From: Alphaproteobacteria bacterium
Lineage (GTDB): Bacteria; Pseudomonadota; Alphaproteobacteria; Micavibrionales; Micavibrionaceae
Assembly: GCA_007117665.1 (NCBI GenBank)
Contig: SKGD01000042.1
Coordinates: 1-36,763, forward strand
Length of the DNA: 36,763 nt
Direction: 5' to 3'
Of the stretch, positions 3,438 through 35,157 are shown piece by piece. The position numbers were made by a program, and so were the translations under genes. The notes beneath the pieces were generated by a model that ran no database searches, was not told the origin of the DNA, and worked only from the letters and a program-made list of their open reading frames with translations. Position 1 is the stretch's first letter; the number at the start of each line of letters is the position of its first letter.

Positions 3438-4064
3438 ATGAGTTATCTGGTTTTATTGCGGCACGGGGAGAGCGAGTGGAACAAACAAAATCGTTTCACA
3501 GGCTTTAAGGATGTCGATCTTAGCGAAAACGGCATTCATGAGGCGATGCTCGCCGGACAAAAAGTCGCCAAGGCCGGCATCAAGTTCGACCAGATTTTTA
3601 CCAGCACGCAAAAGCGCGCTTATGATACGGCTATTTTAGCGATGGATGCCGCCGGACAAGAAGCTTTGACCAAAAGCATGATCCGGCATGATGATCTGCG
3701 CGAACGCGATTATGGCGAACTGACGGGGCAGAACAAGGATGAAGCCCGCGCGGAATTTGGCGAAGAGCAAGTGCATATATGGCGGCGTTCTTATGATACG
3801 CGTCCGCCGGGCGGGGAATGCCTTAAAGATGTTGTTGAAAACCGGGTGCGCCCTTACTACACGACAACAATAAAGCCGATGGTGGATGATGGAAAAAATA
3901 TATTGGTTGCCGCGCACGGTAATTCGTTGCGCGCGATGTTGATCATACTGGGCGTGGAAACACCGGAAACGATCAATGCGGCGGAAATGCCGACCGGTGT
4001 GCCTTTGGTTTTTGAAATTGAAAACGGGACGATCAAAAAGCGTTATTTCCTCGATCAGCCGTAA
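3438..4064 (+). CDS. gpmA: 2,3-bisphosphoglycerate-dependent phosphoglycerate mutase
   Basis: LLRHGESEWNKQNRFTGFKDVDLSENG and VAAHGNSLRAM catalytic motifs; 208 aa. Confidence 0.95.
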   Translation: MSYLVLLRHGESEWNKQNRFTGFKDVDLSENGIHEAMLAGQKVAKAGIKFDQIFTSTQKRAYDTAILAMDAAGQEALTKSMIRHDDLRERDYGELTGQNKDEARAEFGEEQVHIWRRSYDTRPPGGECLKDVVENRVRPYYTTTIKPMVDDGKNILVAAHGNSLRAMLIILGVETPETINAAEMPTGVPLVFEIENGTIKKRYFLDQP

Positions 4065-4452: not shown

Positions 4453-5400
4453 TTAAGTGTTCAATAAACGCAAGGGCTGAATATCGATGCCGGACACAGT
4501 TACAATCGCCAGCGCCCGCCCGTTTAACGTTACAAGCGCCGTATGATCATCCTGCGGATCGATCCCCGCTTTGCGGAGCCTTTCCACGTCCGGCCGGGCG
4601 ATAAAAGACAGTTTCTGTCCGTTTTTCAACCTTGCCGCTTCCTGTTCGTTCAAGGCCAGAGCCGGGATGTCGTCCAGCACGGTCTCGACAGGAAGGAGAA
4701 TATCATCACTAATATCCTCAGGCGGCAGACTATTACCAATTTCTTCGAGTTTTGCAAGAGAAATCGCGTTTTCGATGGTCATTGCGCCAACGGCGGCGCG
4801 CTCAAGATAGCCGACATAACCGCATGTGCCGAGCATTGCGGCAATGTCACGGGCGAGGGCGCGGATATATGTGCCTTTGCCGCAAACGCAGCGCAGCCGC
4901 ACTTTGTCTTGTGAAGCGCTTTCCAGTGTCAGCGATTCAATATAGACATCGCGCGGGGCCAGCTCTGTGACTTTGCCGTCACGAGCGCGGTCATAGGCAC
5001 GCTGGCCATCGACTTTTATGGCGGAGTATTGCGGCGGTGTTTGGGCGATTATGCCGGTGAAATGCGGCAGGATTTTGACAATATCTTCTTGCGCCGGGCG
5101 ATGCGGTGATGTGGCGATGATTGTGCCTTCGGCATCATCCGTATCGCGTGTTTCGCCCCATATCACGTCAAAAATATATGTTTTGAGGCGATCCTGGCAG
5201 TAAGGAACGGTTTTGGTTGCTTCACCGAGTGCAATCGGCAGCACCCCGTGTGCGAGCGGGTCAAGCGTGCCTCCATGTCCGGCTTTTTGGGCATCCAGAG
5301 TGCGCCGGACAAAAGCCACCGCATCGGTCGACGTCATGTCTGCCGGCTTGTTGAGATTGATCCAGCCATTAATGATACGGCCTTTTTTACGTCTGGCCAT
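4453..5400 (-). CDS. truB: tRNA pseudouridine(55) synthase
   Basis: [22 protein letters not shown]...[25 protein letters not shown]. Confidence 0.95.
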
Positions 5401-5767
5401 GGATGTTCTTCAGGATGTTTTCGATTTTCTGGGCTTCGTCAAAGCTGTGATCGGCCTTGAAAGCAAGACGTGGCGTAAATTTCAGGCGCGCATTGCGGTT
5501 AATCTCTTTTTGAAATAAGGGCGCTGCTTCGTTAAGGGCGGGGAGTATCTCATCCATGGCGCGGCCACCCAGCGCAACGACATAGGCAGTCGCATTTTTC
5601 AGGTCGGGGCTGACCCGGACTTCGGAAACAGTGATGCCGGGAGCCTGATCAATTAGGATCTCATCATGAAAATCGCCACGTTGCAGCGTTTCGGCGATCA
5701 TGTGCCGTAATTGCTCCCCGACGCGAAGCTGTCTTTGTGACGCCATAGCCGATACCCTTTCAAACAA
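5387..5767 (-). CDS. rbfA: ribosome-binding factor A
   Basis: QRQLRVGEQLRHMIAETLQRG...ITVSEVRVSPDLKNATAYV; overlaps truB start by 14 bp. Confidence 0.95.
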   Translation of the reverse strand: MFERVSAMASQRQLRVGEQLRHMIAETLQRGDFHDEILIDQAPGITVSEVRVSPDLKNATAYVVALGGRAMDEILPALNEAAPLFQKEINRNARLKFTPRLAFKADHSFDEAQKIENILKNIHGQT

Positions 5768-17123: not shown

Positions 17124-18065
17124 CTATGTTTTTTTTGATTGCTTGCGGCGTTCATAGGCCTTGATAACCTGTGCAACCAGCTTGTTACGGACAACATCGC
17201 GTGACGAGAAATAAACAAAGCCGATATTCTCTTCATCGGCCAGAATATGGCTGGCTTCGACAAGGCCGGAGCCGCTATTGTCGGGAAGGTCGATCTGGCT
17301 CGGGTCGCCGGTAATGACCATCCGGGAGTTTTCTCCCATGCGGGTCAGGAACATCAGCATTTGCATCCGGGTTGCATTTTGCGCTTCGTCAAGGATGATA
17401 AAAGCGTTATTCAGCGTCCGCCCCCGCATGAAAGCCAAAGGCGCGATTTCAATTTCTTCGCTGGCGAGTTTTTTCTGAACCTTGTCGGCGGCCATGGCAT
17501 CATATAGCGAGTCATATAAAGGCCGCATGTAAGGATCCATCTTATCCCGCATCTCACCGGGTAGAAAGCCGATCCGTTCTCCGGCCTCGACCGCCGGGCG
17601 GCTTAAGATAATACGTTCGATCTTGCCTTCTTCGAGCATGGCCACAGCCATTGCTACGGCAATATAAGTTTTGCCCGTACCGGCGGGCCCGATCCCGAAC
17701 ACCATGTGTTTTTCTTGCATGGCCGCGATATAGTCAGCCTGCATCGGCGTCCGTGGCAGGATTTTCTTCTTGCGTGTCGTGATGGTCGGCTGATCGTTTT
17801 TGGCTGAGCCGCCGCCATTATTCTTGCCGGATCCGTTCATATCGTCCTTTTGCCTGTCTAAAAAACGCAGTGCCGCATCAACGCTGTGATGGTCAATGTC
17901 CTGCCCCTTTTGCACCTGCTGCCATAAATCTTCTAAAATAGCCCGCGCCTGTTGTTTGTTGCGGCTCTCACCGGACAGCAATAGCTCATTGCCGCGGCAG
18001 GTGATGTCCACGCCGAGCGCTTGTTCGATGTTTCTGAGATGTGCGTTTTGCTCGCCGTAAAGCAA
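17124..18065 (-). CDS. phoH: PhoH-family ATPase (YbeZ-type)
   Basis: MVFGIGPAGTGKTYIAVAMAVAMLEEGKIERIILSRPAVEAGERIGFLPG...FIILDEAQNATRMQMLMFLTRMGENSRMVITGDPSQIDL. 18065 is a TTG; the frame is open without ATG/GTG/TTG further upstream to 18143. Confidence 0.93.
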   Translation of the reverse strand: MLYGEQNAHLRNIEQALGVDITCRGNELLLSGESRNKQQARAILEDLWQQVQKGQDIDHHSVDAALRFLDRQKDDMNGSGKNNGGGSAKNDQPTITTRKKKILPRTPMQADYIAAMQEKHMVFGIGPAGTGKTYIAVAMAVAMLEEGKIERIILSRPAVEAGERIGFLPGEMRDKMDPYMRPLYDSLYDAMAADKVQKKLASEEIEIAPLAFMRGRTLNNAFIILDEAQNATRMQMLMFLTRMGENSRMVITGDPSQIDLPDNSGSGLVEASHILADEENIGFVYFSSRDVVRNKLVAQVIKAYERRKQSKKT

Positions 18066-18195: not shown

Positions 18196-19047
18196 TTACG
18201 GTGCGCTTCGTGCAGGGGCGGCGGCTGTCACTTTAGCTATTTTTGAATCGTTGCGATCCTCATAGCCTTCGAGCGGCCGGTCATCGTCATTGGCGATGAT
18301 AGCCGTCAAAAGCGGGTGGCGCTTGACGTCTTCCTTGCCCATATCAACCCGTCCGATATAGTCCTTGTAGCGATCTGCGGTAAAGCGATCCATAAAGGCA
18401 TCATACGCGGCTGCGGAAGCTGTCCGGTCATTTTGCCGGGAATCGCCCATATAAATAAACAGGGATTCTTTGCCCAGACGGCCGATCGAGGTCATAAGTT
18501 GCCGCGCTGAGGCATTTTGGCATTCATCCAGAAGATAGGCGGTGCCTTTATATGTACGGCCACGATTAAAGGCATGCGGCGCGATTTCGATCAATCCGGC
18601 TTCCTGCATCTCTTTTCTGAGCTGACGGGTAATTAGTTCGTCAATACTCTCCAAAATCTGCAGTACGTGGCCTTCCATTTTTTCATCTTTATCGCCGGGT
18701 ATGAAACCAAGATTTTCATCGGCTTCGACCGCGGGAGCCGTCAGGGAAATACGTTTAAATCGTCCTTCGGCCAAACCTTCCAGAGCGGCATAGCAGGCCC
18801 AGAATGTCTTTCCGGTTCCCAGAGCGCCGTTGACAAAAACGATGCTTTTGCATTTTGCCAGACGTATGATTTCCCTTTGTTTCTTGGTGGGGGTCATCTC
18901 TTCGCCGTCAATTTTCAGCGTATCATGAAGAGACGGCAGGTTCTTTTCCAGACGAGCAAGCAAACTGTCAATTGACTGGGCGCTATTGTTAAAAACCGGT
19001 GTTGCTTTTCCCTGTGTGTCCTGCGGATCTTTTTTCTTGTTTGTCAT
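18196..19047 (-). CDS. second PhoH-family ATPase, divergent paralog
   Basis: IVFVNGALGTGKTFWACYAALEGLAEGRFKRISLTAPAVEADENLGFIPG, YLLDECQNASARQLMTSIGRLGKESLFIYMGDSRQND. Confidence 0.88.
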   Translation of the reverse strand: MTNKKKDPQDTQGKATPVFNNSAQSIDSLLARLEKNLPSLHDTLKIDGEEMTPTKKQREIIRLAKCKSIVFVNGALGTGKTFWACYAALEGLAEGRFKRISLTAPAVEADENLGFIPGDKDEKMEGHVLQILESIDELITRQLRKEMQEAGLIEIAPHAFNRGRTYKGTAYLLDECQNASARQLMTSIGRLGKESLFIYMGDSRQNDRTASAAAYDAFMDRFTADRYKDYIGRVDMGKEDVKRHPLLTAIIANDDDRPLEGYEDRNDSKIAKVTAAAPARSAP

Positions 19048-20534: not shown

Positions 20535-21476
20535 ATGGCAAAGACCATACTGGCACTGAATAATCTGCATCCTTTGGGACTGGACGGGCTGGAAGACGGT
20601 TTTACCGTTTTGCGGCTGGGGCGCGAACATGACCCTGAAAACGCCATTCAGGCGCATCAGAACGATATTGTCGGCATTGTCGCAAGTGTGGGAAATACGG
20701 TCAGCGCCAAATTAATCGAAGCCTTGCCGAACCTTGAGATCATCAGCAATTTCGCCGTCGGGGTGGATAATATCGATCTGGCGGCGGCGGACAGGCGCGG
20801 TGTTGTTGTGACCAATACGCCGGACGTATTGACTACTGATACGGCGGATATTGCCTTGTCGCTGATATTGTGCGCCGCGCGGCGCATTGTCGAGGCTGAC
20901 GCCTATGTCCGGGTCGGGAAATGGCATGGCGGCGCTATGCGCCTTGGCACCAGCCTGTCCGGCAAGACATGCGGCATTGTCGGGCTGGGGCGGATCGGGC
21001 AGGCGATCGCCGCCCGCGCTGCGGCGTTTGACATGAGGATCCTGTATCATGGTCGTACTGCCAAAACGCATGTGCCTTATGAATTTTGTTCGTCCCTGCA
21101 TGATATGGCTGCGCAATCGGACTTTCTTGTGCTGGCCTGTGCGGGAGGCGCGGAAACAAAACATCTGGTGGATGAGGGCATCTTGGAGGCGCTGGGTGAA
21201 AAAGGTTATCTGATCAATATTGCGCGCGGTTCCGTGGTCGATCAGGACGCGCTTTTGATCGCTTTGCAAAATAAATCTCTTGCAGGGGCGGGGCTTGATG
21301 TTTATGACAATGAACCTAATGTGCCTGAATCACTGTTTTCCATGGATAACGTTGTCCTGTTACCGCATATCGGTAGCGCAACAATGGAAACAAGGCGTAA
21401 GATGGCACAGCTTGTAATTGACAATATCAAGGCGCATTTTAACGGCGACCCTGTAAAAACCCCGGTGGCGGCATGA
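20535..21476 (+). CDS. D-isomer-specific 2-hydroxyacid dehydrogenase
   Basis: CGIVGLGRIGQAIAARAAAFDMRILYHGR Rossmann motif; INIARGSVVDQDALLIAL...GAGLDVYDNEP...LLPHIGSATMETR. Start chosen at MAKTIL within the 20517 ORF. Confidence 0.92.
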   Translation: MAKTILALNNLHPLGLDGLEDGFTVLRLGREHDPENAIQAHQNDIVGIVASVGNTVSAKLIEALPNLEIISNFAVGVDNIDLAAADRRGVVVTNTPDVLTTDTADIALSLILCAARRIVEADAYVRVGKWHGGAMRLGTSLSGKTCGIVGLGRIGQAIAARAAAFDMRILYHGRTAKTHVPYEFCSSLHDMAAQSDFLVLACAGGAETKHLVDEGILEALGEKGYLINIARGSVVDQDALLIALQNKSLAGAGLDVYDNEPNVPESLFSMDNVVLLPHIGSATMETRRKMAQLVIDNIKAHFNGDPVKTPVAA

Positions 21477-21958
21477 TGAAAAAACTGATGATTTTCCTGA
21501 CGGTTCTGTTTGTGGCGGCGCAAGCCTCACAGGCGATGGCCGCGCAATGTTACTCACGAAGCGAAGCCGAGGCCGAGCAGGCGATCCGCATCCATAGCGA
21601 GTTGATGGTGATTGGGCTGAATTGCATGAATATGCGTTTTCGTGACGGCACGAACTTATACCGGACATACCACAATTTCACTCGCGCCAATTCCGATATG
21701 TTTCAGGGGTATGAGCAAACGCTTGTCGATTATTTCCGCAAGGCCGGGCACGACCAGCCGGAGCGGTCGCTGGACACGCTGCGTACGGTTCTGGCCAACA
21801 ATATATCAAACAGCGCCGCGCGTATGAAGCCTGACCAGTTCTGTAACCGTTATGCGGGGCGGGTCTTGCAGGCATCGGGGATGGATCGTTCAACCCTGCG
21901 CCAGTGGGCATCGACCTTTCACCCGTCACACCCGGTATCCCGTCCGATTTGTGAATAA
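21473..21958 (+). CDS. hypothetical secreted protein with four cysteines
   Basis: Signal peptide MMKKLMIFLTVLFVAAQASQAMAA; mature part has exactly four Cys; 4-bp ATGA overlap with preceding dehydrogenase. Confidence 0.8.
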   Translation: MMKKLMIFLTVLFVAAQASQAMAAQCYSRSEAEAEQAIRIHSELMVIGLNCMNMRFRDGTNLYRTYHNFTRANSDMFQGYEQTLVDYFRKAGHDQPERSLDTLRTVLANNISNSAARMKPDQFCNRYAGRVLQASGMDRSTLRQWASTFHPSHPVSRPICE

Positions 21959-23557: not shown

Positions 23558-23782
23558 CTTCTTTTGATTCTGCAGGTCGTCTATATTTTATCCCGAAATA
23601 TCCACAGCTTTCACATGCTGTGCTGATTCGCTGCTTTGCGGCGCTGGGCGGTTTTGTTCGGGGATAGTGCTCTGATGCCTTGAAAACAAAGGCTTGCGTC
23701 CGGCAGCGGGGCTGTTAAGAATATCGCATTCACAAGTTTATTGTCAGATTTTTAAAGAACCAGCATGGGAGAGCCGCCTGCG

Positions 23783-26700
23783 ATGAAGCCCTTATCCGCA
23801 CGCCATAACGAAGACAAAGACCGCAAGGAAACCGAAGGCGCAAGCGATGCGGCCTTATCGTCGAAAACACGCTCATCCTTGTCAGGCGCGGCGGCAGCCC
23901 GTATTCCCGAAGTTACGGCAAAAAAAATCGAGGACATTAAGGGCAAGTCATCCTCGTTACAGCATTTACGGATCACCGCGGCCAGAAATGAAGGCAAGAG
24001 CGGGGCAGGTGGCGGTTTTCACGTCAGCGCCCGTCAAAGCGAACGCAATCATGAAGAATACCGTATGGAAGAAGCGCAGGATCACCATCATGCTGCCGAG
24101 TCCGATGATGAGGCGGCTGTGCTGTCATTGGGAGCACCTGTCACGGCAGATGCCATCAAACGGCCTTTGGGGATGACTATGCTGGTTTATGGCGGGGCTT
24201 TGCTGACCGCACTGTGGGTCGCTTACAGCGTTATTTATATTGCCGGAATTTATGGTGTTCAAGGGTTGATGGCGATGAGCCCGCCGGAAATTGGCGGCAT
24301 GCTGGGCGGTATTTTGGCACCGGTTGCGCTGTTCTGGTTTATCGTCAGCTATGCCGCGCGCAGCATGGATGTGCATCACTACACACAGGCGCTGCGCCAT
24401 GAGCTGCAGTCAATCCTGTTCCCGTCCGAGGAGCGCGCCATTCGGGTTGGTAAGGATATTGAGCGCTTGTGCCATCAGGCAGCCGAGCTGTCGGCATCGT
24501 CCAGGGCGGTGGTGAAAACTATTTCACGGGCGCGGCAGGGATTGCGCTCCGAGATACGTGATTTTGTCGGTCTTTCCAAAAAGACCGAATTTCACATTGA
24601 AAGGCTGGCTGAGTCCTTAAATGAGAAAACGCTTAAGTTAAGCGCCCTGACTGACGAGATCGAACAAAGAACGGCAAAGATCGATGATGCCACACAATCC
24701 GGCGCTGAGGCGTGGGATCAGGCAACGCTTGTGGTTCTTGAGCGCGCCGGGGAAATGGAATCCGCAATGGGACGCGGAGCGGATAAAATACTGGACGCCG
24801 CCGATCAGGCCAAAACTAGAACGCGTGAAATTGAAGATAATCTGCAAAGCAGCTTTGACGGGCTGAGTAAGTCTGTCGATGCGGTCGCGGAAAGGCTGGG
24901 TGATCTCAGCGGCGATTTTGACAACCATATCAAAGGATTGTCTGATGCTGCCGGGCATGTTTCCGATGAAACGTCGCGTCTGGCCGAAACTATTGAAAGC
25001 CAGATCGGCAGCCTTGAGGATGTTGCGCACAGAACGCTGGAGTCCATGGCGAAATCCAGTCAAACGATTGAAGAGCATCGCGAGGCGCTGGATCGCGGGG
25101 CGAATTCTGTTGCCGCGCAGGCCGACCGCATTGCCGACACAATCAATGGCAGCCTGATGGGGTTGAATGATGCGGCTGATCACATGGTCACGCGCACGGA
25201 TGATCTTGAAGAGCGCATCGCCGGACAGGCTGAAAAGCTGCGTGAAACGGTTGGGACTATCACCGGACAGGCGGCCTTGATCGAGGATGCCGGGGTTTCG
25301 GCAGCGAATAAGCTGAGCGAATCCATGGCGGTTGCGTTGTCGGGTGCGGAATCGATCAGCGCCGCCGTGCGCCGTGCGATTGAATCGCTGGAAAAAACCA
25401 CATGCTCGGCCAAGGAACAGGCCGAGGACATGATTGAATCAACGCGCAACCATATCGCACAATTGAATGATGCGGGGGCGGGGAATGTTGCCCATATCCG
25501 CGAGATTCTCGATATGCTGGAGAAAAGCCGCACCCAGATCGAAGAAGCGTCATCCCTGTCCGATGCGCAGGTTGCAAAGCTGGCAGCAGCCGTCGAAGAC
25601 CAGGCCGCACGGATCAACACATCCACGGCCAGCATGGTCGAGCGGATCCAGTCAGTGCAAGGTGCGTTGGAAAAGCCGCTGCATAATATCAATCTGGCGA
25701 TCCGGGATGCGGATTCTCGTCACCAGATGATCGAGGAAACGCTTGGCAAGCGGGTCGAGGACTTGCAGGAATCAAGTGGCAAGGCACGGGAAGCGGCAGA
25801 TTATATCCGCAACATCTTACGCGGTCAGGCACAGGAAATATCGACATTATCCGGCCAGATTTCCGGCCATGCCCGCAGCCTGAACGAACAGCTCGGCGAG
25901 CAAAAAACGCTTTTGGATGACGAAGTGCGGGATTCGCTGCAGAAAATCGAGCAGGTGAGGGATGCACTCGAAAAACAGGCATTGCAGCTATCCGATATTT
26001 CAGTGCGCGCCGTCAGTGATGTTGACGGATTAGGGCGCAGCATCGAAACAAATTGCCGTGATATCGACTCCACAACCCAGAAAACACTTGTCGATCTTGG
26101 GTCTTTGAACGAGCGCTTACAGGATGCGGCAGCGCACCTGAAAGAGCGCAGCGGTGTTGCGAAAGAATCTGTGGAAACAGTCATGGAATCGTTCGAGGGA
26201 ACCGTTGAAAAATTCGAGCCGGTCTTTATCCGGGCGCTGGATTACGCCAAAGAGGCACAGGAAGGCTTTCAGCTTCTTCATGCTGATTTTGACGCCACAA
26301 GCACGCATAGTCTGGCGCGGCTGAAGGATGTCGGCGATGTGTTTGATGAACGCCTGCGCGACCTTAAGAATGGTGCGGATGACGCCGCACAGCTTTTGAA
26401 AACCTCCAGCGATCATTTACAGGAGCGTGTCAGCGATATCCAGCGTGCCGCGCAGGAATCCAGCGACCGCATGTATGAGATTGAGTCATCGCTGAAAGAC
26501 CAATCCTCGGAAATACATTTATCGACCGATCAGGCGATCCTGAAGATTGAGTCTATCCAGCGTTTGCTCAATGACCAGTTCCACGAATTATCGGAATCTG
26601 TTGGTCATGCCACGGCGCAAATTGCCGATGTCGGCGAGGCGCTTTCAAAATCAGCGCGTCATGTCGATGAGGTGTCTGCCAATGTGCTCAGCGGTATTTC

Positions 26701-27658
26701 GGATGTCGCCAGCAAGGTCAGGGAAGAAAGTCGCTCTTTTGCAGCGGTCAGCGCAGAATCCATTGAGCTGACGAAAAATCTGGTTACGACATTATCGGCT
26801 GAGTCCGGTCATCTGGTGCAATCATCCAAAGACTCGCTGGCGGAATTGCGCAGCACCGGCGACAGCATCGAAATGAAAACCCGTGAAGTCGAAGAGCAAG
26901 TCAAGGCGGCGCTGCGGACAACGCGCGACTACACAGCTACATTGCGCGAGCAGGCAACATTAGTGGCTGAAACTGCCGCCGACAGCACCGAACAAATCGA
27001 CCGTTCTGTTTCAATGCTGCGGAGCCGGCTGGGCGACGTGCAGGGCGTGGCCGGTGATGTGGTGGTGCAAGTTGATCGTTCGCGGGATAATTTGTCCGAA
27101 GAAGCAGACAGGCTTTTGCAGGTTTCGGCCTCTGCCATCAAGGCCGCCGAGGAAGCGTCTTCGGCCTTCAGCAAGCAGTCCGGCGCCTTATTCAAGGCTG
27201 TACAGGATGCCGCGCATCACACAGACCGGATCCGCAAGGAAGAATGGCGGGCGCAGCGTAACGCCTTTATGGGCGCGGCGAAATTCATTGTGGAAAGCCT
27301 GCATTCCCTGTCGGTGGATATGACCCGCATTCAGGACGGAGAGCTTTCTGAAAAACTTTGGAAAAACTATCAAAAAGGCGATGTCGCGGCGTTTACAAGG
27401 CGGTTGGCCGAGGTGGGCGATGACACGAAGCTGGAGAAAATCCGCGATAAATACGCCACAGATACGGAGTTTCGTACCTATACGCAGCGCTTTATCCGGC
27501 AATATGAAGAGCTTTACGATCAGGCTGTGGCGAATGATCACGGCGATTTGCTGGGCGCGACATTCTTGTCCAGTGATATCGGCAAGCTTTACATGACACT
27601 GTGTCATGCGGCCGGGAAACCGCCCCGCACAGGCAATCAGGAGCGTAACGCGGCCTGA
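23783..27658 (+). CDS. large inner-membrane-anchored coiled-coil protein, possible TipN/GPR-like polarity or envelope scaffold
   Basis: ORF 23765-27658 (1297 aa). Two adjacent hydrophobic segments (GMTMLVYGGALLTALWVAYSVIYIAGIYG and IGGMLGGILAPVALFWFIVSYAA) then about 900 aa of coiled-coil repeats and a C-terminal globular segment. Start 23783 preferred because of gggagag SD at 23768-23774. Confidence 0.85.
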   Translation: MKPLSARHNEDKDRKETEGASDAALSSKTRSSLSGAAAARIPEVTAKKIEDIKGKSSSLQHLRITAARNEGKSGAGGGFHVSARQSERNHEEYRMEEAQDHHHAAESDDEAAVLSLGAPVTADAIKRPLGMTMLVYGGALLTALWVAYSVIYIAGIYGVQGLMAMSPPEIGGMLGGILAPVALFWFIVSYAARSMDVHHYTQALRHELQSILFPSEERAIRVGKDIERLCHQAAELSASSRAVVKTISRARQGLRSEIRDFVGLSKKTEFHIERLAESLNEKTLKLSALTDEIEQRTAKIDDATQSGAEAWDQATLVVLERAGEMESAMGRGADKILDAADQAKTRTREIEDNLQSSFDGLSKSVDAVAERLGDLSGDFDNHIKGLSDAAGHVSDETSRLAETIESQIGSLEDVAHRTLESMAKSSQTIEEHREALDRGANSVAAQADRIADTINGSLMGLNDAADHMVTRTDDLEERIAGQAEKLRETVGTITGQAALIEDAGVSAANKLSESMAVALSGAESISAAVRRAIESLEKTTCSAKEQAEDMIESTRNHIAQLNDAGAGNVAHIREILDMLEKSRTQIEEASSLSDAQVAKLAAAVEDQAARINTSTASMVERIQSVQGALEKPLHNINLAIRDADSRHQMIEETLGKRVEDLQESSGKAREAADYIRNILRGQAQEISTLSGQISGHARSLNEQLGEQKTLLDDEVRDSLQKIEQVRDALEKQALQLSDISVRAVSDVDGLGRSIETNCRDIDSTTQKTLVDLGSLNERLQDAAAHLKERSGVAKESVETVMESFEGTVEKFEPVFIRALDYAKEAQEGFQLLHADFDATSTHSLARLKDVGDVFDERLRDLKNGADDAAQLLKTSSDHLQERVSDIQRAAQESSDRMYEIESSLKDQSSEIHLSTDQAILKIESIQRLLNDQFHELSESVGHATAQIADVGEALSKSARHVDEVSANVLSGISDVASKVREESRSFAAVSAESIELTKNLVTTLSAESGHLVQSSKDSLAELRSTGDSIEMKTREVEEQVKAALRTTRDYTATLREQATLVAETAADSTEQIDRSVSMLRSRLGDVQGVAGDVVVQVDRSRDNLSEEADRLLQVSASAIKAAEEASSAFSKQSGALFKAVQDAAHHTDRIRKEEWRAQRNAFMGAAKFIVESLHSLSVDMTRIQDGELSEKLWKNYQKGDVAAFTRRLAEVGDDTKLEKIRDKYATDTEFRTYTQRFIRQYEELYDQAVANDHGDLLGATFLSSDIGKLYMTLCHAAGKPPRTGNQERNAA

Positions 27659-27783: not shown

Positions 27784-28719
27784 ATGGGAAAAACAAAATT
27801 CTGCCAAGGTATTTCGGATCTTTCCGACAGCTATAACGCTTTCATTATCGACCAGTGGGGCGTGTTGCATAATGGCGAGCGCGCCTATGACGGGGTAGCG
27901 GATTGCCTGAGAGAGCTAAAAGAGCGCAAAAAGCACATCATTATATTGTCTAATTCCGGAAAGCGTGCGGAAGAAAATAAAGAGCGTCTCAAAAAACTGG
28001 GGATCGGCGCCAGCCTGTATGACGAGATTATCACATCCGGTGAAATCACGTGGCAGGGCTTGCAGGCGCAAAATGAAGGCGTTTTTGAAAATATTGGTAA
28101 AAAATGTTTTCTGATGAGCCGCGACGGCGATCTCTCGCTTATTGGCGGACTGGACGATATTACCGTGACACCGGATATCGAAGAGGCGGATTTTTTGCTG
28201 ATCAGCGGCAGTGACGCGCCGGAAAAAACGCTGGCCGATTATTATGAGCCTATTTTGAGAACCGCGATCAGGCGTCGTTTGAAAGCTGTGTGCGCAAACC
28301 CCGACAGTCGTATTCTGGTTGGTAGTAACTCGACCTTCGGGCCGGGAATGATCGCCCGCCGTTATCAGGATTTTGGCGGGGTTGTCCATTATATTGGTAA
28401 GCCGCACAAACCGATTTTCCAGTACTGTATCAGACAATTGCAAAAACAGGATATCTATCCGGGGCAAACTGTGATGGTCGGCGATACGATGGCACATGAC
28501 ATACTGGGGGCGGCCTCGATGGATATTGACACATGCCTTGTCAAAAACGGCCTGCATTACGGCTCGTTCAAAGGCTGTGCGTCGGCCTATGATGTTGACC
28601 GGGCATTAAATATTTTGGTGTTGCAACATAATAACGTCAGGCCAACCTATCTCGTTGACCGGATGAAATGGGGCAAAGCCTTGCCCGATCGCAAGCATAA
28701 AAAGCGCAAATCCGCATAG
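27784..28719 (+). CDS. HAD-superfamily class IIA hydrolase (TIGR01459-like)
   Basis: YNAFIIDQWGVLHNGERAYDGVADCL...IIILSNSGKRAEENKERLKKLG...VMVGDTMAHDILGAASMDIDTCLV. Confidence 0.88.
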   Translation: MGKTKFCQGISDLSDSYNAFIIDQWGVLHNGERAYDGVADCLRELKERKKHIIILSNSGKRAEENKERLKKLGIGASLYDEIITSGEITWQGLQAQNEGVFENIGKKCFLMSRDGDLSLIGGLDDITVTPDIEEADFLLISGSDAPEKTLADYYEPILRTAIRRRLKAVCANPDSRILVGSNSTFGPGMIARRYQDFGGVVHYIGKPHKPIFQYCIRQLQKQDIYPGQTVMVGDTMAHDILGAASMDIDTCLVKNGLHYGSFKGCASAYDVDRALNILVLQHNNVRPTYLVDRMKWGKALPDRKHKKRKSA

Positions 28720-28773: not shown

Positions 28774-29353
28774 ATGGCGCATTTTGAATCCGCCAAAGAC
28801 AAAATCATGATGGGCGCCGAGCGTAAATCTATGGTTATGACTGAAAATGAACGAAAGCTGACGGCGTATCATGAGGCCGGTCATGCGCTGGTTGCTGTTC
28901 ATCAGAAACATTCCGATCCGGTTCATAAAGCCACGATTATCCCGCGTGGACGTGCTTTGGGCATGGTGATGCGCCTGCCGGAAAAGGATTCGCTGAGTAT
29001 TAATACGGCACAGCTAAAAGCTAATCTGGCGGTTGCTTATGGCGGACGGCAGCCAGTTTTCAGCCGGAACGGCGGCGCTTATCGATGAGGAAGTCAAGCG
29101 AATCACAGCCGAAAGCGAAACGGAGGCAAAAAGAATCCTAAGCGAGCACCGCGATCAACTTGAGATCATTGCGCAGGCTTTGTTGAAATATGAAACGTTG
29201 AGCGGTGCCGAGATTGATGCTTTGTTGAGAGGCGAAGAGCTGCAACGCGAAGGGGCTGTCGATGATATGGCGGCGGCACGCCGCCTATTCCGGGGTAGTC
29301 TTATTCGCGGTCTTCCATCTCTTCGCGCATCGCACGGGGCAAAAGGATATTAA
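28774..29353 (+). pseudogene. ftsH: truncated, internally deleted and frameshifted ftsH (M41 peptidase) fragment
   Basis: [72 protein letters not shown]...AYGGR, then in another frame [59 protein letters not shown] domain and the segment between are absent. Confidence 0.88.
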
Positions 29354-33804: not shown

Positions 33805-35157
33805 ATGCACCATAGCGGCACAGGCGATTTTACGTCTCAGGTCTTTTTTGGTTGGGATCCGCTGATCACAGCCACTGTGATTTTGGTTATCTCCTATGTT
33901 TTCATCGTCAGCGAAAAGATAAACCGCGCTATTGTCGCGTTGCTGGGGGCGTCGCTCCTTGTTTTGCTGGGGGTTTTGAATCAGGAATTAATGGTGCAGG
34001 GGATCGATTTCAATACGATCTTCCTGCTGACCGGCATGATGGTGATTGTGGCGATCACCAAAGATACCGGGGTTTTCCAGTTTGTGGCGATCATGTCAGC
34101 CAAGCTTGTGCGCGCCAATCCGCGGCTGCTTTTGATCAGCCTGGCGGTGATTACAGCCTTCTTTTCGGCGCTTTTGGACAATGTGACGACGGTTTTGCTG
34201 GTTGTTCCGATCACACTTCTTTTGACAGAGCAGCTTAAGTTAAAAGCATATCCTTTTCTTTTTACACAGATTTTTGCATCTAATATTGGCGGCATGGCGA
34301 CGCTGGTTGGCGATCCGCCTAATATCCTGATCGGTTCGGCGATCGGATTCAGCTTTATGGATTTCGTTTATAATGTCGGGTTGGCGTCGTTGATCATATT
34401 TGTGATTACAACCGTGATTTTTGACTTTATATGGGGGCGCAAGCTGCAAACCTCGCTGCGGGCGCGAGCGCATTTGATGCGTTACAATCCTTATGAAGCG
34501 ATTGAAGACCTTGAATTGCTGGTTAAAAGTCTGGCTGTGATCGGCTTTGTGCTGTTCGGTTTTGTCTGGGGACATGGCCAAGGATGGGAGCCGGGGACAG
34601 TCGCGATGGCCGGCGCGGCGCTGTTATTATTGTTGAAATGCTATCGCTTTAGCCCTGAAGAGCAATCTCACAAGGTTCATGCGGCCTTTCAGGAAGTCGA
34701 ATGGGAAACGATCTTCTTCTTTATCGGCTTGTTTGTGATTGTTTACGGGGTCGAGCATACAGGGCTGCTGGAAATTCTGGCGCAGAAAATGCTCGATTTC
34801 ACCGGAGACGACCTGTTTCTGGCGGGGATGTTTATCCTGTGGTCGGCGGCGATTATTTCGGCAATCATTGATAATATCCCCTTTGTCGCCACGATGATCC
34901 CGCTGGTGCAGGCAACGGCGCCGGCCTTTGGCGGCGATGATATGATCGAACCGCTCTGGTGGTGTTTGTCTCTGGGGGCTTGTCTGGGGGGGAATGGGTC
35001 GCTGATTGGTGCCAGTGCTAACCTGATGGTTGCGAGCTTTGCCCAACGTGCCGGACAGCGTATGGTGTTTCTTGAATTTATGAAACTTGCCTTTCCGCTA
35101 ATGATTTTCACAACAATTATTGCTACGATCTACGCATGGCTGATGTTCTTCAGATAA
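33805..35157 (+). CDS. ArsB/NhaD/SLC13-type (ion transporter superfamily) permease
   Basis: Polytopic; FNTIFLLTGMMVIVAITKDTGVFQFVAI, SALLDNVTTVLLVVPITLLL, ASNIGGMATLVGDPPNILIGSAIG, second-half SAIIDNIPFVATMIPL...CLGGNGSLIGASANLMV. Confidence 0.9.
   Translation: MHHSGTGDFTSQVFFGWDPLITATVILVISYVFIVSEKINRAIVALLGASLLVLLGVLNQELMVQGIDFNTIFLLTGMMVIVAITKDTGVFQFVAIMSAKLVRANPRLLLISLAVITAFFSALLDNVTTVLLVVPITLLLTEQLKLKAYPFLFTQIFASNIGGMATLVGDPPNILIGSAIGFSFMDFVYNVGLASLIIFVITTVIFDFIWGRKLQTSLRARAHLMRYNPYEAIEDLELLVKSLAVIGFVLFGFVWGHGQGWEPGTVAMAGAALLLLLKCYRFSPEEQSHKVHAAFQEVEWETIFFFIGLFVIVYGVEHTGLLEILAQKMLDFTGDDLFLAGMFILWSAAIISAIIDNIPFVATMIPLVQATAPAFGGDDMIEPLWWCLSLGACLGGNGSLIGASANLMVASFAQRAGQRMVFLEFMKLAFPLMIFTTIIATIYAWLMFFR

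Follow-up and report, generated by a model that had tools for sequence, protein, structure and literature searches.

Genomic context and gene model

The window, that is, the whole stretch of 36,763 nucleotides that was analyzed, comes from a 1.77-Mb draft genome of the Micavibrionaceae (the Micavibrio group is a predatory lineage). It contains a gene for a long rod protein in the order miaB, a dehydrogenase gene, an unknown gene, agcS, the rod-protein gene, a HAD-IIA gene, rssA and msbA, which is conserved across the order Micavibrionales. The features of the gene and its downstream neighbour are as follows.

23783..27658, forward strand: coding sequence, most likely 1291 aa; 1297 aa if translated from the in-frame ATG further upstream at 23765
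23783..24154, forward strand: disordered charged N-terminus, residues about 7-130, with poor conservation and low AlphaFold2 pLDDT
24167..24355, forward strand: membrane hairpin, TM1 about 135-160 (invariant W151), TM2 about 175-197 (invariant P186)
24437..27259, forward strand: rod, residues 225-1165, continuous helical, with the repeat in phase between residues about 235 and 1155
25676..25678, forward strand: conserved Pro638 (96% of orthologs)
26219..26221, forward strand: conserved Pro819 (96% of orthologs)
27242..27622, forward strand: all-helical C-terminal domain (CTD; residues 1160-1286), the hallmark common to RgsE/GPR and TipN
27784..28719, forward strand: HAD-IIA hydrolase (TIGR01459), adjoining the gene in most Micavibrionales loci

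The open reading frame 23765-27658 on the forward strand encodes 1297 aa, and the full-length open frame is kept among the relatives from the order. The protein probably starts at the conserved ATG at 23783 and comprises 1291 aa, because the first methionine of the relatives aligns with Met7 of the longer frame (motif M-K-x-x-S-A) and this ATG is preceded, at a distance of 9 nt, by a Shine-Dalgarno-like GGGAGAG. Full-length orthologs with 26-61% identity were identified in more than 20 relatives. The gene is missing in 29 of the 90 good genomes of the order (about a third), and given that it is absent from whole clades at a time, it can be lost and hence is not indispensable. The genomes without it include entire Micavibrionaceae genera (g458, g6 and g17) as well as further families of the order, many of these genomes being nearly complete.

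Upstream of agcS lies a gene for a 161-aa protein of unknown family (21473-21958, forward strand), which is kept in 50 of 70 related loci. A 104-aa fragment that corresponds to the middle portion of FtsH, at the start of peptidase M41 (28774-29088, forward strand), is present in none of the 70 and looks recent. Elsewhere in the window, two adjacent PhoH-like genes are found on the reverse strand (17124-18065 and 18196-19047), one with a strong match (E=2e-92) and one diverged (E=1e-41), and the best NCBIfam match of a CitMHS-type transporter (33805-35157, forward strand) is the magnetosome protein MamN, at 162 bits, below the cut-off of 500.

Domain organization of the predicted protein

An earlier note on this DNA described a disordered charged N-terminus, two closely spaced transmembrane (TM) helices and a distinct, conserved C-terminal segment, and these parts of the description are borne out. 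In the ortholog alignment, the mean column identity of the N-terminus is only 0.23-0.38, and the AlphaFold2 pLDDT falls below 50 at residues 105-123. Hydropathy delineates two hydrophobic segments at residues about 135-160 and 175-197, and the AlphaFold2 model of this region (mean pLDDT 88) is a two-helix hairpin followed by a single long helix; the tryptophan/proline pair of TM1 and TM2 is also present in the TipN, RgsE and Sphingomonas homologs.

No other part of the protein is as well conserved as the CTD, which has many invariant charged residues and is predicted to be folded, AlphaFold2 yielding a bundle of about six helices with pLDDT 70-92 over the core. In all 43 homologs examined, it lies 1-17 aa from the stop codon. 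The earlier note had also raised the possibility that this segment belongs to an unrelated family; however, no fitting model for the CTD was found in Pfam, NCBIfam, PHROGs or PADLOC, a search of the PDB sequences with its profile returned nothing significant, and PDB fold searches with the CTD and TM models gave nothing below E 0.1, the matches to tape-measure (phrog_167) and ZorA profiles being confined to the coil.

The CTD profile matches 143 of 385 alphaproteobacterial genomes, in 97 of 277 genera and almost always with one copy per genome, as well as 74 of the 299 genomes of a phylum sample, every one of which belongs to Alphaproteobacteria; by this profile, the CTD was found only in Alphaproteobacteria among the genomes sampled. 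Genomes of the family f29 encode short open reading frames (329-377 aa) that the CTD profile matches weakly and only in part (E 1e-4 to 1e-7), possibly a rod-poor version of the protein.

A 25-residue repeat and a rod of fixed length

The rod is composed of about 37 tandem 25-residue (7-11-7) coiled-coil repeats, without a skip residue. In the family alignment, period 25 explains 59% of the hydropathy variance (adjusted R2 0.59; R2 = 0.43 for the sequence of the window protein alone), and periods 7, 11, 18 and 22 explain none. Rod models with a heptad, a hendecad or 18 residues as the unit were rejected (R2 about 0), as was an apolipoprotein-like rod, for which period 11 has R2 0.00 and the best PF01442 score is 24.5 bits vs a cut-off of 90; the heptad/apolipoprotein-like repeats proposed earlier are not upheld by these values (adjusted R2 0.00 for period 7). 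The averaged hydropathy oscillates with one sharply defined period, 3.572 = 25/7 residues per turn, which a fine scan resolved from the blurred peak at 3.58 given by a coarse scan (step 0.02). The core spacing is 3-4-4-3-4-3-4, i.e. 7+11+7; the self-identity of the window protein peaks at lags 25, 50 and 75; and the phase is held within about 20 degrees along almost all 941 rod residues. After shuffling of 7- or 11-residue blocks, the R2 of period 25 never exceeds 0.04, and a single random indel introduced in silico reduces R2 from 0.45 to 0.26.

The length of the rod is similarly constrained. Residues 225-1165 (941 residues) are gap-free in 21 of 23 orthologs. A measure that does not depend on this alignment agrees: of the 60 loci in which both an N-terminal anchor and the CTD were located, 46 have exactly 862 residues from one to the other, with a Hyphomicrobiales-titled genome among those at 862; in relatives from other groups, rod lengths differ. 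The two conserved prolines, Pro638 and Pro819, are possible kinks in the rod. The phase-locked 25-residue repeat and the frozen rod length are two features absent from the earlier note. We found no description of a 25-residue coiled-coil repeat in the open-access literature, which is weak evidence of absence.

Homology to TipN and RgsE/GPR

The PNPase encoded in the window matches PDB entries 4aim, 4aid and 4am3, which are the Caulobacter crescentus PNPase, and a 4.0-Mb genome that carries an open reading frame of TipN length has a PNPase 100% identical to the PDB chain over 236 aa. In this Caulobacter genome, the class-wide CTD profile hits the respective open reading frame (E=2.9e-8), which encodes 888 aa from a TTG or 882 aa from an ATG; its two TM segments are followed by a coil, a Pro-rich stretch and, at the end, a diverged CTD. 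Its identification as TipN rests on genome identity, architecture and the length of 882 aa given for TipN (PMC13170164) rather than on an annotated record. In comparisons with the Caulobacterales set that represents TipN, the CTD matches at 98% (profile-profile, E=1e-14) and the TM module at 97% (hhalign, E=9e-11), with controls for the TM module (reversed sequences and rod segments) reaching at most 8%.

In Sinorhizobium meliloti, the PLSDB record CP090106.1 contains a 2089-aa gene annotated as 'kinesin', which we identify as RgsE, a GPR homolog, because its length equals that given for RgsE (PMC7327166). The C-terminus of this protein and the CTD of the window protein are 42% identical over 113 aa, without gaps (E=1e-24), and RgsE also matches the TM hairpin (E=8e-8; hhalign of the TM module, 53%, E=1e-4, reversed controls at most 4%). 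The rod of RgsE scores 257.8 bits with PF01442, vs 24.5 for the window protein. CP090106.1 is named pSymB, yet spans 3.7 Mb with chromosome-type genes such as that for RgsE, and is probably mislabelled. A small, divergently transcribed Hpt-domain gene lies beside the RgsE gene (5096-5464 of that locus) and beside the Sphingomonas homolog (3658-3951 of that locus), and by similarity beside the Shinella homolog; it was rejected as a functional hint, with no match at the other loci.

The window protein combines the features of the TipN/GPR(RgsE) superfamily, namely, two TM helices after a disordered N-terminus, a long cytoplasmic helical rod, and the CTD at the protein end; judging from the above sequence and profile comparisons, its CTD and TM module are homologous to those of both TipN and RgsE/GPR, in agreement with the family assignment made in the earlier note. 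The same assignment had cast it as a divergent member, and here the relationship is reversed. Most of the class-wide homologs, for which mostly about 450 residues adjoining the CTD were examined, have the same period of 25, the exceptions being RgsE and Shinella (11/22), TipN (weak 18/36) and a few others. Given that most homologs share the 25-residue repeat and TipN and RgsE are without it, these two are the atypical members, and the window protein is close to the class norm.

In the literature, TipN and GPR are described as 'analogous' or 'similar', and both C-termini are called disordered (PMC13170164, PMC8546619). The shared TM module and CTD, the latter predicted to be folded, make TipN and GPR a single family spread over Alphaproteobacteria, so that pole marking becomes testable outside Caulobacter and Rhizobiales. 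GPR that lacks the last 10 residues is impaired in complementation, which is abolished by the loss of the last 221, and rings still form without the last 332 (PMC8262873). Because the CTD of RgsE stops two residues before the stop codon, we infer by homology that these deletions cut or remove the CTD of GPR.

Predicted functions

On balance, we consider it probable that the protein is an inner-membrane-anchored polarity scaffold which, by analogy with TipN, would function in Micavibrio as a landmark of the new pole rather than as a growth organizer. TipN works together with ParA and promotes the arrival of PopZ at the new pole (PMC10127582), and Micavibrio cells carry one polar flagellum and multiply by binary fission (PMC3189940). 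Via their rods, the chains would oligomerize to form a stiff coiled coil with a slow twist, which in extended form would reach up to about 140 nm and would be held in the membrane by the hairpin; many copies would gather at the pole left by division, and from the distal end of the rod the CTD would capture cytoplasmic partners, in the way that TipN captures ParA and flagellum-placement factors. In the small, curved, MreB-containing Micavibrio cell, such a landmark would serve flagellum placement and chromosome orientation, and GPR/RgsE would have become a growth organizer in the MreB-less Rhizobiales. Several points go against a pole scaffold: the rod is of another type than the rods of TipN and RgsE, the gene is absent in 29 of 90 genomes of the order, and the gene neighbours (AgcS, HAD, RssA, MsbA) give no pointer to polarity.

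The rod itself, phase-locked and frozen in length to the residue, is what a mechanical strut could look like: rods of fixed length would brace the pole or envelope, or space the inner membrane from the nucleoid, with the CTD only capping or bundling them and no signaling involved. The loss of TipN weakens the pole against envelope stress (PMC7403779), in line with such a role. However, relatives from other groups have different rod lengths and, because the CTD is the most conserved part and has many invariant charged residues, it may well be a partner-binding module, so we regard a purely mechanical function as unlikely.

The CTD and TM module that the window protein has in common with RgsE could also indicate a growth organizer of the GPR/RgsE type, a membrane ring that concentrates the synthesis of the envelope at the division site or at one of the poles; depletion of GPR/RgsE misshapes cells and its excess leads to branches (PMC7327166, PMC8262873). 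However, MreB is present in 38 of 38 relatives from the order, the source genome included, whereas the Rhizobiales that use GPR/RgsE lack MreBCD (PMC8546619). Moreover, the window rod is without the apolipoprotein-like 11/22 repeat of RgsE, and the other Rgs proteins are undetected outside Rhizobiales in orders with distant RgsE homologs (PMC7327166). Because all 38 relatives keep MreB, a TipN-like pole landmark is favored over a GPR-like growth ring, and the 'growth zone' that the earlier note had entertained as an alternative is disfavored; a growth organizer seems quite improbable to us.

A protein of an unrelated type, for instance a phage tape measure (phrog_167, E=3e-8), a ZorA-type defence protein (PADLOC, E=6e-12) or an SMC-like protein (TIGR02169, E=4e-8), is highly implausible, given that these matches all fall on the coil, far below the curated cut-offs where such are given, that the CTD matches none of them, that the protein contains no MotA domain, SMC-ATPase or phage structural domain, and that the chromosomal neighbourhood is stable and free of phage genes.

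Starting from the polarity scaffold, one could tentatively go further and propose, with some doubt, that a class-wide polarity family with an uncatalogued CTD and an ancestral 25-residue rod stands behind TipN and GPR/RgsE, and that in Micavibrionales the rod of 37 repeats is a ruler, about 140 nm long and fixed to the residue, that determines how far the partner-binding domain lies from the membrane anchor. A long, skip-free 25-residue rod is in any case an unusual natural coiled coil, which can be tested by addition or removal of whole repeats.

Comparison with known polarity systems

Scy of Streptomyces, with its 51-residue coiled-coil repeat, resembles the window protein as a polarity scaffold built on a long, regular, non-heptad coiled coil, but differs in the repeat and in the phylum and is not known to be homologous or to have a TM hairpin or a CTD. 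Scy interacts with ParA (PMC3718342).

TipN of C. crescentus shares with the window protein the disordered N-terminus, the TM hairpin with a tryptophan in TM1 and a proline in TM2, the helical rod and a homologous CTD that ends at the stop codon. In contrast, its rod is about half as long and without the 25-residue repeat (R2 0.03; weak 18/36), a Pro-rich low-complexity segment separates the rod from the CTD, and the CTD is strongly diverged. RgsE of S. meliloti likewise has two N-terminal TM helices, a very long helical rod and the CTD at the extreme C-terminus; unlike the window protein, it comprises 2089 aa, with an apolipoprotein-like rod of periods 11/22, and the Rhizobiales are without MreB and grow at the pole.
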